Origin: Planococcus wigleyi
GTDB lineage: Bacteria; Bacillota; Bacilli; Bacillales_A; Planococcaceae
Assembly: GCF_014836985.1 (NCBI RefSeq)
Contig: NZ_JACSPU010000001.1
Location: forward strand, 431,473 to 495,472
Reading direction: 5' to 3'
DNA: 64,000 bases
Below are positions 3,128 through 41,448 of the stretch, one piece after another (position 1 is the first letter of the stretch; each line of letters starts with the position of its first letter). A model generated the notes under the pieces. That model searched no databases, was not told where the DNA came from, and saw only the letters and a list, made by a program, of their open reading frames with translations. The position numbers and the translations under genes are program-made.

Positions 3128-3869
3128 ATGGCCGCTGCCTGCTTTTAAATTGAATAATAAACTGGCAATCGTGGAGTCATCTGAAGAGGCAGAGAAATTA
3201 GTCGGCAGCTGTTCCGATTTTCTAGATTTTGTCGATGAAGGAAGCCGGCAAAAAGCATTAAGTTTTTTGCTGAGTAGTGAATCGGCGAGACCACTTGAGT
3301 TGAATTTCATTTCAAAAACCGGCGAACTGTTCCTTGGAGATGTCTACAGCAAATGGATCAGTGATTTTAGTTTGAACATCGTCCTTGTGCCGAAAGATAA
3401 CCGGCTCATGGAGATCACCAACCAGTTGTTGAGCCTTCGCCGGCGCCTGCAGGAAACCGACTATGACCTGCTTCTTGAAAAGGAACGGACGGAGGAGCTG
3501 CTTCAACAGGTTCGGGAGTTGTCTGCCCCTTGTATCGACCTCGGCAAAAAGCACGTGCTGATTCCGCTATTCGGCGATTTGGATCCCCACAAGATTGAAG
3601 TGATCCGTTTTCATATCCTGAATCAAGTTTATGAAAATGGCGCCGAAACCGTCATCATGGATTTGACTGCTATGGAGAAGTTGGAACAGGATGGCGCCGA
3701 TTATTTGAAGTCGTTAATGCAGACCTTTAAAGTGATGGGCATTGAGGGCATCATCACCGGAATCAACCCACAGCATGCCCAACAGCTCCATCATCTCCAA
3801 ACGGGGCTGGACCTGCATTTTGTTTCTTCTTTGCAGATGGTCTTGGCTTCACGGAATTTACTTATATAG
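3102..3869 (+). CDS. PAS-like/STAS-domain protein, RsbR-like stressosome candidate
   Basis: A 255-residue protein with three parts. Residues 10-100 are a PAS-like sensor region (SEEAEKLVGSCSDFLDFV, then SKTGELFLGDVY). Residues 101-140 are a charged coiled-coil linker. Residues 141-255 are a STAS domain that opens SAPCIDLGKKHVLIPLFG, as in RsbR-type antagonists. T189 (DLTAME) and T219 (ITGINP) lie near the positions of the two threonines phosphorylated by RsbT in RsbR. The start overlaps the B12-binding gene by 26 bp with GGAAAGGAA just upstream. The arrangement suggests that a B12 sensor feeds a stressosome-like STAS platform. No rsbS, rsbT or sigB gene lies in this window. Confidence 0.8.
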   Translation: MNSISHLDEWPLPAFKLNNKLAIVESSEEAEKLVGSCSDFLDFVDEGSRQKALSFLLSSESARPLELNFISKTGELFLGDVYSKWISDFSLNIVLVPKDNRLMEITNQLLSLRRRLQETDYDLLLEKERTEELLQQVRELSAPCIDLGKKHVLIPLFGDLDPHKIEVIRFHILNQVYENGAETVIMDLTAMEKLEQDGADYLKSLMQTFKVMGIEGIITGINPQHAQQLHHLQTGLDLHFVSSLQMVLASRNLLI

Positions 3870-22272: not shown

Positions 22273-23121
22273 TTACTCATAGTAGCCTTCCGTCGATTTA
22301 CGGAACGTTTTGAACTGGTTCGCATCATGGCCAAACCAGACATCGGAATTGGTTTCTTTTGCGATTCTGCGTATTTTTTCAACTGCAGTCGTATAGCCCA
22401 CTGAATCATATAAGATGCCCGGCGGCTTGATTGGCGGGCCGTAACTCTCTGCCGTATAGATGGCATCCGAGGCCAAGATGATGCCGCCTGTTTCCGGCAT
22501 TTGTATCTGAAGGCCGAGCATGCCCCACGCATGCCCGCTTCCGAAGTTCAGGATTTTGATGCCTTCAGCCAGTTGCAGCCCGTCCTCTGTCCGTTTGACG
22601 GTCTGCCATTGCAGGTTGTTCTTGATCCAGGCGTCGATGTCGCCCCAGATATAGGCACCTTCCTTCATGTTGCGGGCATAGGTCTGCAAAGCGCCATTCA
22701 GTTCATCTTCGTGAACGATGATGGTCGCATTGGTGAACAGCTCAAGGCAGCCGGCGTGATCCAAATGCAGATGGGAAGCCACTACATATTTGATGTCTTC
22801 AGGCCGGACATTCAATTCCTCCAAGCGGTGATGGAGGTAGCACTCTTCCGGCATATCAATCGGAAACAGTGATTGCGTCACTTTCCCCCAACGTCCTTCG
22901 GCACCCATTGAATTCGGATTGCAGGCGGTGTCGAACAGGATTTTGCCTTCAGGATGATCGATCAATACGGTGTAGACTGGAAATGTCACCATTTCACTCG
23001 GTGGATTTGGATTTTCTGCACTTGCGGGATTATGCATGGAAATCAGGTAGTTCTTATCCATGCTCAATGTGCCATTGTCCATTACGTACAGTTTCGGGTT
23101 TGCCTTGATAATACCAGTCAT
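22273..23121 (-). CDS. MBL-fold hydrolase, N-acyl-homoserine-lactonase family
   Basis: 282 residues of a metallo-beta-lactamase fold. The dinuclear zinc site is visible: HLHLDH (in YVVASHLHLDHAG), the third His in FGSGHAWGML, the bridging Asp in ILASDAIY, and the final His in VWFGHDANQF. The long N-terminal part (VYTVLIDHPEGKILFDTACNP) matches the AiiA/AttM-type lactonase group. Such enzymes open the lactone ring of AHL signals, but many relatives act on other esters. The ATG at 23121 follows GAGGGGG. The gene is convergent with the cupin gene. Confidence 0.85.
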   Translation of the reverse strand: MTGIIKANPKLYVMDNGTLSMDKNYLISMHNPASAENPNPPSEMVTFPVYTVLIDHPEGKILFDTACNPNSMGAEGRWGKVTQSLFPIDMPEECYLHHRLEELNVRPEDIKYVVASHLHLDHAGCLELFTNATIIVHEDELNGALQTYARNMKEGAYIWGDIDAWIKNNLQWQTVKRTEDGLQLAEGIKILNFGSGHAWGMLGLQIQMPETGGIILASDAIYTAESYGPPIKPPGILYDSVGYTTAVEKIRRIAKETNSDVWFGHDANQFKTFRKSTEGYYE

Positions 23122-23185
23122 CAAATGTCCCCCTCTCAGAATAATTACATAATATCATAATATTCAGTTTACTGTGAAGGGATAT

Positions 23186-23222
23186 AAAAACTCCTGAACC
23201 AATAAGTTCAGGAGTTAAAAGG
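23186..23222 (-). terminator. Terminator of the aspartokinase gene
   Basis: On the minus strand AACTCCTGAAC-TTATTG-GTTCAGGAGTT followed by TTTAT, 9 bp after the stop. Confidence 0.85.
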
Positions 23223-23230
23223 GAGTGAGG

Positions 23231-24595
23231 TTAATGAACCAATGCAGGCTCAAAGAATTCTTTGTATAATTCGTTCAATATCTTTTGTTCATCTTCTTTT
23301 AGAATGCCGAAGACTAAACTTACTTCAGAAGAACCCTGGTTGATCATTTCGATGTTGACGCCGGTTCTGGCAAAAGCGTTTGCTGCACGTGCAGTAAGTC
23401 CTTTTGTATTGTTCATGCCTTCACCAACCAAAACAATCATGGAAAAATCATTGCGGATATGGACGTCATCAGCCTGCAGTTCAGATTTGACCCGATCGAC
23501 AATCCGCTGTTCTTTATCAGCAGTCAATTGATGGCTGCGCAAAATGACGGATAAGTTATCGATGCCGGATGGAATATGTTCATAGGAAATGCACTCATCT
23601 TCCAAAATCTGCAGCAGTTTTCGGCCAAACCCGATTTCACGGTTCATCAAGTATTTGCTGACATAAAGCGTCGAGAAACCGCTATCTGCCGAAATTCCTG
23701 TAACCGGGCGCAGGGAAGTGTCGCGTTCTGCAACAATCATCGTACCAGGGGCAGATGGATTATTGGTATTGCGGATGCATAAAGGAACCGCTGCTTTAAA
23801 AACAGGCATTAAAGCTTCATCGTGCAAGACGGCAAATCCCGCATACGAAAGCTCGCGCATTTCACGGTAAGTCATCTGTTCGATTTCGACCGGATTAGCG
23901 ACGACGCGTGGATTGGCGACAAACACACAATCGACGTCAGTAAAGTTTTCATACAGCTCAGCTTTGACGGAAGCTGCAAGAATCGATCCGGTGATATCCG
24001 AGCCGCCACGCTCGAATGTCCGAAGAACGCCTTCTTTTGTATAACCAAAAAAGCCGGGGAAAACAGTGATGGTTTCTTTATTGCGCAGTTCTGCTAATCG
24101 GTCATAGGCTTCTGGAAGTGCCTGTGCCCGTTCAGGCAAGCCGTTTACAAATAGACCGGCATCAAACGGGTTGACATATTCGGCATTCAAGCCGATTGAA
24201 GTCAGGTAAGCAGCGATTAATTTTGCAGAGTTGTCTTCACCGCTTGCTTTGATCGAGTCAGCAAAAAGTGGGGGAGAGCTTTTATCTGCCTGAAGGCGGT
24301 TCAGAAGGTCTGTTTTGATGACTTGCTTAATGTCATTGCCCAGCTCCAACTCGTCAGCAATTTCCGCATAGCGTTCAACGACCTTTTCCAAGGCAGTATC
24401 CGTCGGTTCCTCGCGTAGCGCAGCTGCCGATAAATTAATTAACAAATCTGTCACTTTTACATCTCCATCAAATCGCTTGCCTGGAGCAGATACCACAATG
24501 ATCTTACGAGAAGGCTCTGCTTTAACGATTGCTGCCACTTTTTTGATCTGTTGTGCACTAGCTACTGAAGTACCGCCAAATTTGCTTACTTTCAT
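23231..24595 (-). CDS. Aspartokinase (ThrD/YclM-like, threonine branch)
   Basis: 454 residues, the length of B. subtilis aspartokinase III. The N-terminal kinase domain opens VSKFGGTSVASAQQIKK and has GKRFDGDVKVTDLL, FPGFFGYTKEGVLRTFERGGSD and the late SDIT-type phosphate loop. The C-terminal 150 residues hold two ACT domains (ISADSGFSTLYVSKYLM and FSMIVLVGEGM), implying feedback by threonine, lysine or both. The ATG at 24595 is chosen because the family begins MKV.KFGG; a slightly longer start at 24610 is possible. Divergent from hom-thrC-thrB, for which it supplies aspartyl phosphate. Confidence 0.92.
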   Translation of the reverse strand: MKVSKFGGTSVASAQQIKKVAAIVKAEPSRKIIVVSAPGKRFDGDVKVTDLLINLSAAALREEPTDTALEKVVERYAEIADELELGNDIKQVIKTDLLNRLQADKSSPPLFADSIKASGEDNSAKLIAAYLTSIGLNAEYVNPFDAGLFVNGLPERAQALPEAYDRLAELRNKETITVFPGFFGYTKEGVLRTFERGGSDITGSILAASVKAELYENFTDVDCVFVANPRVVANPVEIEQMTYREMRELSYAGFAVLHDEALMPVFKAAVPLCIRNTNNPSAPGTMIVAERDTSLRPVTGISADSGFSTLYVSKYLMNREIGFGRKLLQILEDECISYEHIPSGIDNLSVILRSHQLTADKEQRIVDRVKSELQADDVHIRNDFSMIVLVGEGMNNTKGLTARAANAFARTGVNIEMINQGSSEVSLVFGILKEDEQKILNELYKEFFEPALVH

Positions 24596-37146: not shown

Positions 37147-37881
37147 ATGTCAAATGAAAACAAACCGGTTATCGGGATTACAGCACGAGTTGAAGAAGAT
37201 CAAACCTACTCATTGGATCCAGTATACGGAAGAGCGATTTTGCAGGCTGGGGGTTTGCCGCTGATAGTACCGATTGTGGATAAAGAAGACATCCCTTTGT
37301 TATGCGAGCGCTTGGACGGCTTGATTGTCACTGGAGGTGGGGATATCAATCCTACTTTGTACGGGGAAGAGCCACATTTACGCTTGGGCGCCGTATACCC
37401 TGGCAGTGATGAGTATGAAAAAGAACTGATTTTGAAGTTTCTTGAACTCGATAAACCGTTTATCGGAATGTGCCGTGGGTTGCAGATGTTAAATATTTCA
37501 TTAGGCGGCACAAATTATCAGGATTTAGAGGCTCAATTTGAAGGCAATTTGCATCAGCACAAACAAATGGCTATGCGGACACATCGTACCCATTCGGTAA
37601 CTTTGGAAGACGAAAGCCTACTGTATGAGATTATGAAAGAGAAAAAATTCAATGTGAACTCTTTCCACCATCAAGGCGTCAAAGACGTTTCGGATCAATT
37701 GACGGTAGCCGCTTATGCTGCTGATGGTCTGGTGGAAGCATTGGAAAGCAAGCACCATCAATTCGCTATGGGCATCCAATGGCATCCAGAAGAATTCGCT
37801 CTTCAAGGCGATGATGCTTCCATGAACATATTTAAGCGTTTTGTTGACGAATGCCTGGTAGACAAAAAGCAAAATCAATAA
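37147..37881 (+). CDS. Gamma-glutamyl-GABA hydrolase-like class I amidotransferase (PuuD type)
   Basis: 244 residues of peptidase family C26. The catalytic Cys is in FIGMCRGLQMLN and the His-Glu pair in GIQWHPEEFA. The glycine-rich DGLIVTGGGDINPTLYGEE is typical of PuuD. It would hydrolyse gamma-glutamyl-GABA or related gamma-glutamyl compounds. A good SigmaB-type promoter implies stress induction, which pairs suggestively with the possible SigmaB site of gabD, also a GABA-pathway enzyme. Confidence 0.87.
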   Translation: MSNENKPVIGITARVEEDQTYSLDPVYGRAILQAGGLPLIVPIVDKEDIPLLCERLDGLIVTGGGDINPTLYGEEPHLRLGAVYPGSDEYEKELILKFLELDKPFIGMCRGLQMLNISLGGTNYQDLEAQFEGNLHQHKQMAMRTHRTHSVTLEDESLLYEIMKEKKFNVNSFHHQGVKDVSDQLTVAAYAADGLVEALESKHHQFAMGIQWHPEEFALQGDDASMNIFKRFVDECLVDKKQNQ

Positions 37882-37888
37882 ATACAGA

Positions 37889-37926
37889 AAAAAGATTCAG
37901 GGATCTCTTATCCCTGAATCTTTTTT
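37889..37926. terminator. Bidirectional terminator between genes 37147 and 37897
   Basis: AAAAAAGATTCAGGGAT-CTCT-TATCCCTGAATCTTTTTT. The stem overlaps the last codons of the minus-strand metalloprotease gene. Confidence 0.88.
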
Positions 37927-38505
37927 ATTGCCTTCAGGAGTAAATAGAGCGGTTGCTTTTCCGTTGTCCTGAAATAGTGTGTCTGCCGGCGAGGTTAATG
38001 CGATATAAGCCTGTATATAATCTCCGGCAGAACCTGCAAAGTTTACGATCATTAAAATATAAACACTTAGAAACAAGGGGTTCGTAACGAGGGCCAATAG
38101 GGAAATCAATGCTGCTCCCCATATCGTTACAGGTGCCAAAGCGATGATGATAAAACTTCTTCGATTAAAATAAGCTTCACTGCCAACTGAAAGGAACGGA
38201 AACCGAATTCGATAGGCAGGGCGGCTGCGGGAAAAGATCTTTATGAAGACTGCGTGCATGGTTTCATGAAGAGCCATATAAACTAAAACCAAAACAACGG
38301 TAATAAAAAAAGACAAGAAAGGATTCAAAGTGCTAGATAAAGGCAAGCCTGTCCATAAAGCTAAGCCAATCAAAATGCCAGTGATCAAGACAAAGCAGGA
38401 CTGGATCAAAACATTAAGATGTTTATCCTGAGCTAAATCGATTGTGCGCTCTATATTATAATGAGGTGGCAAACTAAGAGTATTTTCATTCATCTTCTTC
38501 CCCAT
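37897..38505 (-). CDS. Membrane zinc metalloprotease-like protein (DUF3267 type)
   Basis: 202 residues with four to five hydrophobic segments. An HExxH motif (H80-E81-T-M-H84, in MALHETMHAVF) lies at the end of a membrane helix and a possible third ligand D162 in FAGSAGDYIQAYIAL, as in the DUF3267 putative zincin group. The ATG at 38505 has AAGGAGG 7 bp upstream. The same frame is open through the whole peptide gene, but that extension is only a shadow of the repeats. It is 100 bp downstream of the tandem-repeat peptide gene, so a role in precursor processing is attractive but unproven. Confidence 0.78.
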   Translation of the reverse strand: MGKKMNENTLSLPPHYNIERTIDLAQDKHLNVLIQSCFVLITGILIGLALWTGLPLSSTLNPFLSFFITVVLVLVYMALHETMHAVFIKIFSRSRPAYRIRFPFLSVGSEAYFNRRSFIIIALAPVTIWGAALISLLALVTNPLFLSVYILMIVNFAGSAGDYIQAYIALTSPADTLFQDNGKATALFTPEGNKKDSGIRDP

Positions 38506-38547
38506 GCATATTCCTCCTTGTAGATAGAAGTAGGAACGAACTTTAAA

Positions 38548-38585
38548 AGTAAAAAGACTGTCGCCAAGTGAATAAGCGACAGTCT
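38548..38585 (-). terminator. Terminator between the peptide gene and the metalloprotease gene
   Basis: On the minus strand AGACTGTCGC-TTATTCACTTG-GCGACAGTCT followed by TTTTAC. The stem has ten perfect pairs but the T run is short, so readthrough into the metalloprotease gene is plausible. Confidence 0.75.
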
Positions 38586-38605
38586 GGGTAGGAGTAGAAA
38601 GAATA

Positions 38606-39031
38606 CTAAGCCTGTTGATTTTTAACGGACCAAGGTTCAGGAACACGGGCTTGAGCAGCAACTTCTTTGCCGACGGACCAAGGTTCAGGAACGCGGGCTT
38701 GAGCAGCAACTTCTTTGCCGATAGACCAAGGTTCAGGGACGCGGGCCTGAGCAGCAACTTCTTTGCCGATAGACCAAGGTTCAGGGACGCGGGCCTGAGC
38801 AGCAACCTCTTTGCCGACAGACCAAGGTTCAGGGACGCGGGCTTGAGCAGCAACCTCTTTGCCGACGGACCAAGGTTCAGGAACGCGGGCTTGAGCAGCA
38901 ACTTCAGTGCCGACGGACCAAGGTTCAGGCACACGAGCCTGAGCAGCAAAGTCAGTACTTGAGGCATTATCTAAAGAGAAAATATTTAACGCGAGAATTG
39001 AGAAAAATAATATTGTAACTCCTTTTTTCAT
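38606..39031 (-). CDS. Secreted tandem-repeat pheromone precursor (putative)
   Basis: 141 residues. MKKGVTILFFSILALNIFSL is a Sec-type signal peptide. From residue 29 the protein is seven tandem copies of AAQARVPEPWSVGKEV (16 residues), with only small changes (T for K in copy 1, I for V in copies 4 and 5) and a last copy ending SVKNQQA. Nothing else is present. This is the build of a multi-copy peptide-signal precursor: each unit has an Ala-x-Ala-like junction (AAQA) before a Pro/Trp-containing core such as RVPEPWSV. AGGGAG lies 8 bp before the ATG at 39031. It starts 12 bp after an HTH-TPR regulator gene, the arrangement of RNPP regulator/peptide pairs. The signalling role is inference. Confidence 0.88.
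   Translation of the reverse strand: MKKGVTILFFSILALNIFSLDNASSTDFAAQARVPEPWSVGTEVAAQARVPEPWSVGKEVAAQARVPEPWSVGKEVAAQARVPEPWSIGKEVAAQARVPEPWSIGKEVAAQARVPEPWSVGKEVAAQARVPEPWSVKNQQA
38624..38947 (-). repeat. Seven tandem 48-bp repeats inside the peptide gene
   Basis: In transcription order six full 48-bp units run from 38947 to 38660, then a partial 36-bp seventh unit covers 38659-38624. The units are nearly identical at the DNA level, including third codon positions. That points to recent expansion or ongoing homogenisation rather than purely protein-level constraint. Because 48 is a multiple of three, all reading frames stay open across the array on both strands. Confidence 0.92.
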
Positions 39032-39043
39032 TATGTCCACTCC

Positions 39044-40333
39044 CTAAAATAAGATAGTTGTACTTTTGTATGCTTTTCTTGCTTTATTCATAATTTCAGC
39101 TGCTTCTTTATATCTTTTTTGTTCATAAAAAACTTCACCCAAATGTCCGTAAAAGTATCCTATTTCAAAGAAATTCTCATTGCTTTCTAAACTTGGAACA
39201 AGTTGATTCAAAACATAGTTTTCAAAGCCTTCATGATTTCTATTCACTAAGTGATCGAGGCAAAGAAATTCAATGTAAGCTTCTTTAAAGGCTCGGTTTG
39301 TAGGGGAGTGGATACTTATTTTTTTGTTTTCTACTATATCAAAGCCTTTTTTTAACCAACTCTTAGCAATTTCATGATTACCAAGCTCATAATTACATTT
39401 AATTAAAACACAATAACTAATTAAAATATCGGCGGGGTATTCAGGATGAATATAGTCTAGAGAGCGTTCAGTATGTTTGATGGCTGGTTCATAATTTTGA
39501 AATAGAAAGTAAGCATATCCTATATTGTACTCAGTGGTAAAACGCAGAATATCAATTTCTAGCTTATTGCCAATAGTTAGTGCGTTCTTATAATGTTCCA
39601 TTGACATTCTGAAGTTGCCAAAGTGCTGATGAGAGATGGCTATATTCAAATGGCATTCAACGATGCGTTTTGGAATGAATTCCTGTTGGTAAATCTTCAG
39701 GGCCATCTCCGTGTACTTATAAGCCATTTCGGTTTCTCTGCATTTTGTACTGGAAATCCCGATTGAATAATACAAATCACCGATCTCAGAAGCAGAAATC
39801 GTGTTGGGAGCAATTTTTTCAGCGACGAGATAAGTCTTCAAGGCTTTTTCAAAATCATTCAAGATGTAATTATAGTTTCCGTTGTACTTATGGAATAAAT
39901 AAAACTGTTCTTGATTCATAAATTCCCTGAATCGATCGATTTCCTTGATTTTTTCTTCGGCGCTATCCAAATCCCCTGTAATGATGAAGTATCTAATTTG
40001 TTGAATGCTGTATTCCAGTTCCACATCTTCATCAGCATGCAATAAAGGATGATCTTGAATATCAGCATACTGTTCCATGATCTTTGCCTTGTTCTGCGGA
40101 TGCAATAATGAGTTTTTAAAATTTTTCACAAGTACTTTTCCAATGGGATTGTCTTTAGGTGCCAAAGGGATGGCTAATTTTTTGCATAAAGCTTCAAGTT
40201 CCTTCAATGCTGGATCTTTGAGGCCGGTTTCAATTTTTTTCAGTTCTCTGGGAGTCAGTATGCCAGAGGCTAATTCTTCTAAACTAATTTTCTTTTTTAA
40301 ACGATGGTATTTCAAGCGCATTCCCGTGTCCAT
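39044..40333 (-). CDS. HTH-TPR peptide-responsive regulator (RNPP/NprR-like)
   Basis: 429 residues. Residues 5-60 form an Xre-type helix-turn-helix (MRLKYHRLKKKISLEELASG, then PRELKKIETGLKDPALKELE). Residues from about 105 to the end are TPR-like helical hairpins, for example YYSIGISSTKCRETEMAYKY, CHLNIAISHQHFGNFRMSME and YFYGHLGEVFYEQKRYKEAA. This domain order and length match NprR-like RNPP quorum-sensing regulators (Rap, NprR, PlcR, PrgX), whose TPR pocket binds an imported peptide. The ATG at 40333 has AAAGGAG 7 bp upstream; the frame is open to 40513 without a site. The repeat-peptide gene follows after 12 bp. Confidence 0.88.
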   Translation of the reverse strand: MDTGMRLKYHRLKKKISLEELASGILTPRELKKIETGLKDPALKELEALCKKLAIPLAPKDNPIGKVLVKNFKNSLLHPQNKAKIMEQYADIQDHPLLHADEDVELEYSIQQIRYFIITGDLDSAEEKIKEIDRFREFMNQEQFYLFHKYNGNYNYILNDFEKALKTYLVAEKIAPNTISASEIGDLYYSIGISSTKCRETEMAYKYTEMALKIYQQEFIPKRIVECHLNIAISHQHFGNFRMSMEHYKNALTIGNKLEIDILRFTTEYNIGYAYFLFQNYEPAIKHTERSLDYIHPEYPADILISYCVLIKCNYELGNHEIAKSWLKKGFDIVENKKISIHSPTNRAFKEAYIEFLCLDHLVNRNHEGFENYVLNQLVPSLESNENFFEIGYFYGHLGEVFYEQKRYKEAAEIMNKARKAYKSTTILF

Positions 40334-40484
40334 TACTGCTCTCCTTTCCTTTTGCAAGGGCAGTACTTCTGTCATCCATGTAGGAGAGTTGTTTTCCGCC
40401 TTTTTCGGATCGTCCGAGAAGTAAGAAGAAAATAGATCGCTAAGTACGATAATTGCCGCCTCCACATCCCATAGTTGCTTTGTT

Positions 40485-40513
40485 TTTACATCTTTTATAC
40501 ATGATATCATCAA
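40485..40513 (-). promoter_or_regulatory. Possible promoter and palindrome upstream of the HTH-TPR gene
   Basis: On the minus strand TTGATG, 17-bp spacer, TGTAAA (4/6 each). The perfect palindrome ATGATATCAT (40501-40510) overlaps it and could be an operator. A leader of about 145 nt would result. The region 40514-40787 is AT-rich and shows nothing else. Confidence 0.3.
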
Positions 40514-40787
40514 TTTTCGAAATAAACTGCTTTTTTATTTTAGATTTCGATAAAAAGAGAAAAAAGGGAATAAAAGCCTACTCCGGTAATTGTTGAGTAA
40601 CTGAATACTCATAAAAGTTATTTTTATGGGTATATTTATCCAATATTTATTAAAGCGCTAATAACTCTTATTTGAACTTTTCATTTTTGAAAAAATAGTT
40701 ACACAAGCAAAGTACGCTGATTTCCTGTGTTTTATACCTGATCATAGTATATTCATGAGGGATTTTTTTATTCTGCTCCTAAAGAAT

Positions 40788-40813
40788 GTTATGGATGTTT
40801 CCATCGAGGGTAA
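40788..40813 (+). promoter_or_regulatory. Possible SigmaB-type promoter of gene 40855
   Basis: GTTATG, 14-bp spacer, GGGTAA, 42 bp before the start. The -10 is 5/6 and the -35 only 3/6. The call leans on the stress-protein family of the gene. Confidence 0.45.
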
Positions 40814-40854
40814 AGAAAGAATAGGAAATTTTATAATGTTATGGAGGTTTTTAT

Positions 40855-41448
40855 ATGGATACGGATAAAAAAGTATTGGCAGTGGTATTTTCGGAAAGTG
40901 ATCTGCAAAGAAAAGTGGAAGATTTAAAGAATGCGGGGTATGAGGAACGCGATCTTCATATCATCGCCAAAGACGTAAAGCATTTTGATAACTACGCTTT
41001 CGATAAAACAGAAGTCGATTCATTTGCTGATAAGTTTAAAGGATTTATTTCAGGTGAGAGTGGTGTCCGTGAAGGAGTGAAATCATTAGGCCTTTCGGAT
41101 TCGGAAACAGAACGCTATACGGCTGATCTCGCAAAAGGTGGAATCTTAATATACAAAGATGAAGAAAATAAAACCATTATAGACGTGATTTCAAATAAAA
41201 ATGTAGCAGCGGGACAGGAAAATCCGAATGATCTGCAAAGACAGCAGTATATCAATTCGGTTGACAATAACTTTGATGAACAGGAAGATCGTTTTGCCCG
41301 TGGAGAAACATTCATGCAGGATCCGACCTTAGTGAAAGATGAAAAACATAATTCATTCACTACCCAAGAAAATCCGGATGTCGAGAAAGCTAGAGGCGGC
41401 TCCAGTGAAGCTGAAAAGCATAGCCAAAGCGATCGGAAGTACAAATAA
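40855..41448 (+). CDS. General stress protein, YflT/GS17M domain (first copy)
   Basis: 197 residues. The N-terminal 105 form a YflT domain (VLAVVFSESDLQRKVEDLKN, DLHIIAKDV, VREGVKSLGLSDSETERYTADLAKGGILIYKDE). The C-terminal 90 are hydrophilic and probably disordered. Proteins of this kind (GS17M, YflT) are SigmaB-dependent stress proteins of unknown biochemical role. A paralogue with a longer tail follows at 41785; between them lies copy B of the MITE-like element. Confidence 0.85.
   Translation: MDTDKKVLAVVFSESDLQRKVEDLKNAGYEERDLHIIAKDVKHFDNYAFDKTEVDSFADKFKGFISGESGVREGVKSLGLSDSETERYTADLAKGGILIYKDEENKTIIDVISNKNVAAGQENPNDLQRQQYINSVDNNFDEQEDRFARGETFMQDPTLVKDEKHNSFTTQENPDVEKARGGSSEAEKHSQSDRKYK

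Follow-up and report, generated by a model that had tools for sequence, protein, structure and literature searches.

A regulator and repeat-precursor gene pair conserved across Planococcus, most likely a peptide-sensing system of known kind with a multi-copy pheromone precursor

Regulator and precursor genes of the locus

We analysed a 64 kb stretch of Planococcus wigleyi DNA (the window, meaning the whole stretch at its full length), in which a gene for a regulator with helix-turn-helix (HTH) and tetratricopeptide repeat (TPR) domains is followed by a gene for a putative secreted peptide precursor made of tandem repeats (Table 1). The first-pass annotation had described a 429-residue HTH/TPR protein that stops 12 bp short of a seven-unit precursor gene, and this arrangement was confirmed by coordinates, Pfam matches and repeat detection.

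Table 1. Positions of the features at the regulator-precursor locus and its flanks, counted from the first letter of the window
Feature	Position	Strand	Remarks
DUF3267 putative zincin membrane protein	37897..38505	-	Outside the conserved system; Pfam E 2e-19
Pheromone precursor gene (putative), 141 aa	38606..39031	-	ATG at 39031, stop at 38606; predicted signal peptide, seven 16-residue units, tail KNQQA
Seven tandem units, core RVPEPWS[VI] in each	38624..38947	-	Period 48 bp; Tandem Repeats Finder, consensus of units
N-terminal signal peptide region, 28 residues	38948..39031	-	MKKGVTILFFSILALNIFSLDNASSTDF; by hydropathy
RRNPPA-like receptor/regulator, 429 aa + stop	39044..40333	-	Xre-type HTH and nine TPR-type helix pairs
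Conserved leader in frame with regulator	40334..40465	-	Free of in-frame stops here and in 45 relatives; possible N-terminal extension or leader peptide
Promoter-like block ending in extended -10	40501..40530	-	TGATATCAT; pattern in 46/46 genomes
Operator-like motif, candidate binding site	40562..40580	-	TAGGCTTTTATTCCCTTTT; TAGGYA...TTTACCT in relatives; 43/46 by fixed pattern

Pfam places HTH_3 at residues 7-57 of the regulator (E 1.1e-6) and also finds TPR_12 (E 2.3e-15). In the AlphaFold2 model the HTH has a predicted local distance difference test score (pLDDT) of about 90, and nine TPR-type helix pairs were counted over residues 63-423. The superhelix is of the RRNPPA type, and the length falls within the 250-500 aa of such receptors. 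Asn270 occupies the position of RapF Asn227, which contacts the peptide backbone; it is invariant in 60 aligned receptors and is predicted to make the same contact. Members of the Rap subfamily have no HTH and carry an N-terminal 3-helix bundle, which the HTH_3 domain of the regulator does not fit, while the NprR-type combination of an HTH and nine TPRs does fit by Pfam and model. The receptor could instead exert its main effect on another protein, in the way that Rap or apo-NprR acts on Spo0F, with the HTH secondary and the peptide switching that interaction. We consider this unlikely, as the HTH_3 match is modelled with high confidence and the alignment pairs Y118 and Y223 with Q112 and F219. 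Such a mode would nevertheless be compatible with peptide-switched DNA binding, since NprR does both.

The precursor is read in the regulator's own frame, in which a GTG also lies at 39040, 3 bp past the regulator stop. Its N terminus has a basic start and then a hydrophobic stretch, with a best 12-residue hydropathy mean of 2.57 vs 0.38 in the rest of the protein. Beyond these 28 residues come seven AAQARVPEPWS[VI] units, six of them followed by G[TK]EV. The signal-peptide-like start and the seven near-identical units were therefore as first described, with the short tail besides. Tandem Repeats Finder returned the array at 38625-38949 with a period of 48, 6.8 copies, 93% matches and a score of 517. 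Because it is the single tandem array in the whole window and scores this high, a chance origin is excluded.

Conservation of the pair and of its core

Homologues of the regulator were searched in 261 genomes of the family Planococcaceae with a threshold of E 1e-20. Matches were found in 66; all 46 Planococcus genomes are among them, with 59-100% identity. Of the loci, 30 named ones belong to Planococcus/Planomicrobium and were used for gene-order counts. In a class-wide sample of 398 genomes drawn evenly, 12 matched at E 1e-45, namely 11 of Planococcus and G016; two family members outside that draw, G017 and G071, match too in the family search. At least two repeat copies can be read after the regulator in 43 of the 46 Planococcus genomes, counting L018 (contig end after two copies) and L045 (a few Ns inside). 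The other three are interrupted within the array, L021 by Ns and L039 and L044 by a contig end, each with the core or most of it. Relatives with the regulator and no repeats, which on the first-pass annotation's own terms would count against the pairing, are absent among the 46 genomes, three of them cut inside the array. An adjacent secreted propeptide is typical of RRNPPA systems, and an ATG with a signal-like N terminus was found in 46 of 48 precursors.

Copy number in the 43 readable arrays ranges from 2 to 14 with a median of 7; the period is 12-18 residues, apart from one value of 21 that spans Ns. The precursor exceeds 100 aa in 35 of these genomes. These figures bear on the alternative that the repeat protein is secreted and acts whole, at the surface, as a structural component or as an antimicrobial, and that the HTH-TPR protein next to it simply regulates its transcription. 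In favour of this are an export signal, a mature region that is long and repetitive, and a cornifin-type repeat match that stays below the Pfam cut-off (30.7 vs 34.8 bits). However, copy number and period vary around an unchanging 7-residue core, a pattern more in keeping with released units than with a folded protein. Cys is absent from 45 of 46 precursors examined, the lone exception running into a contig end; downstream of the pair no third gene is kept in all loci; and Bacillales RRNPPA pheromone genes are described immediately downstream of the receptor (PMC9765709). A protein acting whole is thus very unlikely.

The core was delineated from the consensus of each of the 43 arrays, with positions counted relative to Trp. 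There is little variation from -5 to +1: R 39 and K 4 at -5, V 24, I 16 and other 3 at -4, P 42 at -3, E 37, Q 3, D 2 and H 1 at -2, P 43 at -1, W 43, and S 30, A 10 and F 3 at +1. The spacers are variable except for E/Q/D at +5 (39), V/F/L at +6 (40) and Ala at +7 (40). In most arrays the last copy and the internal copies are alike up to +1 or +2 and then diverge, so the active stretch probably ends there. The core first guessed, RVPEPWSVG, is close to the R-[VI]-P-E-P-W-[SA] plus perhaps one residue obtained here, but by conservation and last-copy divergence its final G is not included.

Among copies within one array, the core shows 57 nonsynonymous vs 970 synonymous pairwise differences, a nonsynonymous to synonymous ratio (pN/pS) of 0.019, while the spacer value is 0.233; both come from pairwise counts of non-independent events. 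The excess of synonymous differences indicates that the copies are old enough to diverge and yet are kept alike as protein. This constraint on all copies argues strongly against a mostly neutral array, expanded by slippage and with one copy used. Copy number does vary freely between close relatives and the final copy is followed by a C-terminal tail of its own, as a neutral array would allow, but none of the 46 genomes has a complete one-copy precursor, although L043 holds a degenerate copy (KVSQPENIKFD) before two good ones. We regard neutrality as highly improbable.

The same layout recurs with other cores in more distant relatives, with IIPEPW in L048, MYPPPW in L051 and VPPPF twice in G016 (L049), there behind a frame-broken receptor. 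Five Planococcus genomes carry a second receptor, 31% identical, and at the three such loci inspected (L050, L069 and L070, with the main pair also present) ILWPQPW or IHP[NS]PW repeats follow. A further RRNPPA-like receptor was noted in the window's genome (G000 contig C17, 20317-24027; L002, L071), 21% identical over residues 1-237 and followed by a 31-aa precursor, MMKTKLFLLSALSTGLLGVMVIGGPNILPPI, with a subtilase match at 22684-23475 alongside; from its sequence this is a candidate single-copy pair. In another genus of the family, L063 has five copies of QDKP[DE]ITS behind its receptor (about 3379-3685 on the receptor strand), where several of its relatives have one DKPEITS-type copy. These peptides, which resemble NprX and follow 22-28% identical receptors in other family genera, were considered as a bridge to NprR/NprX and dropped, as the receptor of L063 has Rap and PlcR chains but no NprR among its matches within E 0.001. 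A mobile origin was not adopted either: the query P0001 had no match in phage records or viral contigs, and 14 plasmid records match at 27% identity at best.

Upstream region and neighbouring genes

The promoter-like block lies about 175 bp upstream of the regulator ATG, and the operator-like motif 70 bp further upstream. Between block and gene is the leader, where the regulator's frame stays open for at least 45 codons ahead of the ATG in each of the 46 genomes. In 41 rows in register there are 0 stops in that frame vs 90 and 67 in the other two, and pN/pS is 0.65 vs 0.89 and 0.88. Of the 46 genomes, 42 have a start codon at -44, and the frame ends in a motif like NSPTWM.E.LP.Q.ERR. The leader also carries GGAGGCGG (GGGGGCGA in some) and after it, spaced as a start codon is from a ribosome-binding site, a conserved ATC/ATA codon. 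As the frame is kept open, the leader may encode a longer receptor form with an N-terminal extension or a leader peptide fused in frame, or translation may start at a rare codon. It further contains CTCTCCT, complementary to the regulator ribosome-binding site AGGAGAG. This seven-base complement, giving seven hairpin pairs, recurs in 22 leader sequences; no compensatory change was seen in the helix among them, so the hairpin has no covariation support. Rfam returned one chance-level match over 37800-40900 (20.7 bits vs a gathering score of 92.6).

The interval first assigned to the system, 37897-40513, proved too wide on both sides, taking in the DUF3267 gene at one end and the region upstream of the regulator ATG (40334-40513) at the other. 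DUF3267 was rejected as a maturation protease because it is present in only 3 of the 30 named loci (L072-L074); a similar sequence follows the array of L008. A glutamine-amidotransferase-like gene lies downstream in 19 of 30 loci, some of which end too early to tell. Upstream and divergent, a YflT-like stress gene is found in 30 of 30. In the window it spans 40855-41448 (+), with promoter-like GGGTAAAG at about 40790-40860 and a GTTTAA-like partner in many relatives. This promoter looks SigB-like by eye, and the gene, which is also divergent, was not adopted as a target of the regulator.

Proposed mechanism and relation to known systems

The pair is real and conserved. Its most likely role is peptide sensing by a system of known kind, unusual in the multi-copy precursor that the whole genus retains. 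The first-pass reading of an RNPP-type regulator with its precursor has good support from fold, key residue, gene order, genus conservation and core selection, which favour an RRNPPA receptor with a multi-copy pheromone precursor. We put the probability of a self-contained pair of this type at roughly 0.83. Beyond the pairing, we infer the following mechanism. The spacing of 12 bp suggests that regulator and precursor are probably co-transcribed. The precursor would be exported by Sec, and extracellular proteases would cut the spacers, probably beside the near-constant [EQD][VFL]A. This element, with a few residues and Arg after it, resembles the spacer LKLA before ERPVGT in the Phr105 precursor, which is cut by extracellular proteases (PMC11343458), and by analogy it is probably the cutting site. 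Several copies of the conserved stretch, extended by about one residue, would be released. Oligopeptide permease genes are present, and their products may import the peptide. In the cell it is predicted to bind on the concave side of the TPR superhelix, near Asn270, and to switch the regulator, whose HTH would bind DNA, perhaps at the regulator's own promoter, where the operator-like motif is a candidate site. With multiple copies per precursor, each round of translation would yield more signal; the steeper response or lower threshold proposed in the first-pass annotation might follow.

We next asked whether core and receptor change together. In a tree of 51 receptors each larger core change (PD, KxPQ/H, RVTE) is confined to one receptor clade. 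At the position two before Trp, 39 of the 46 Planococcus receptors are paired with E, two with D and five with Q or H (for L044, one of the five, read from a truncated unit). Of the 429 receptor columns, three (262, 266 and 419) split the seven non-E from the 39 E receptors. Residue 266 precedes Asn270 by one helix turn and residue 262 by two, and RapF Arg223, one turn before Asn227, touches the peptide. As controls, at least three columns of this sort occur for 10 of 429 non-nested clade pairs, the tested pair included, and each of seven single-clade tests gave 1 to 23 columns that set the clade apart from the rest. The covariation with the core that the first-pass annotation proposed to look for is thus seen for the residue before Pro-Trp, where it is suggestive at most, and for no column in the full set of nine receptors with a changed core.

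Several observations weigh against a peptide-sensing pair. Full covariation would be expected at 262 and 266, and what is seen there rests on two core changes only; both residues are changed in L040/L041 while the core is unchanged, and the RVTEPW pair has a changed core with both unchanged. NprX contacts R126, Y165, W167 and H201 of NprR (PMC4970707), and in an alignment read by hand these are G120, N159, F161 and K197 in the regulator, which is why we do not file it as NprR. When receptor and first three repeats were modelled as a single chain with AlphaFold2, the receptor was good and the peptide floated, with pLDDT 22-37 in blocks over residues 431-510; this does not itself speak against binding. 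In the genome the promoter-like block is unique when up to 3 mismatches are allowed, and its 19-base heart recurs once, with 2 mismatches, which yielded no regulon.

The observations can be joined in a wider picture, which we offer tentatively and at somewhat short of even odds. Planococcus would have a genus-wide, always multi-copy pheromone class with the core [RK]-x-P-[EDQH]-P-W, in which copy number (2-14, with an orthologous receptor) is an evolvable gain setting, residues 262 and 266 by the universal Asn read the residue before Pro-Trp, and second divergent pairs with their own core form separate channels in some species. The pair itself would amount to a peptide language of Planococcus. 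Because one orthologous receptor pairs with 2 to 14 same-core copies in 43 readable genomes, the pair forms a natural dose series for asking what purpose multi-copy pheromone precursors serve.

The kind of system is known. Several copies per precursor had been taken as new, and this was not borne out, since multi-copy RRNPPA propeptides are already in print in three papers: Rap and NprX pheromone duplications within one precursor (PMC5199041), up to six copies per propeptide, with repeats in 17 of 17 large NprR propeptides (PMC9765709), and up to eight copies per RRNPPA precursor, both copies being matured in two phage precursors (PMC11343458). The Pro-Trp core family is not found described in the searched literature: the strings VPEPWS, IPEPWS, RVPEPW, RIPEPW and PEPWSV gave nothing there, supplements aside, and no Planococcus peptide language is described among the literature matches listed. 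'Planococc' is absent from the main texts of PMC5199041, PMC9765709, PMC10075063, PMC11343458 and PMC12700828, the supplements, where propeptide lists would be, lying outside that scope. The 'strict' filter of RRNPP_detector admits propeptides of 10-100 aa, a limit that is operational and not defining (PMC10075063). The 141-aa precursor falls outside it, as do most Planococcus precursors (35 of 43), which makes a filter of at most 100 aa a blind spot in detection.

The closest known system is NprR-NprX of the Bacillus cereus group, NprR being the best HTH-bearing match of the regulator in structure and sequence. Both systems combine an HTH with a TPR superhelix, a precursor gene directly downstream and Sec-type export, and the large NprR-associated propeptides are repeated as well. 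In contrast, identity is 20% over the structural alignment, the NprX contacts are not kept, and the core is RxPEPW here and SKPDIVG there. The RRNPPA systems Rap105-Phr105 and Rap3T-Phr3T of Bacillus phages differ in other ways: Rap is without HTH, the precursor has two copies instead of 2-14, the Pro-Trp core is missing, and the systems are phage-borne. Similar in layout is a locus on a Mesobacillus foraminis plasmid (L104; NZ_CP033045.1, 2763-3176), where a 25% identical HTH-TPR receptor is followed by a 414-bp gene, annotated as hypothetical protein, with a signal-like start and EE[LF]PPPLAP-type repeats. Its genus and core are different from those described here, and by sequence it is a candidate for another, plasmid-borne multi-copy system.
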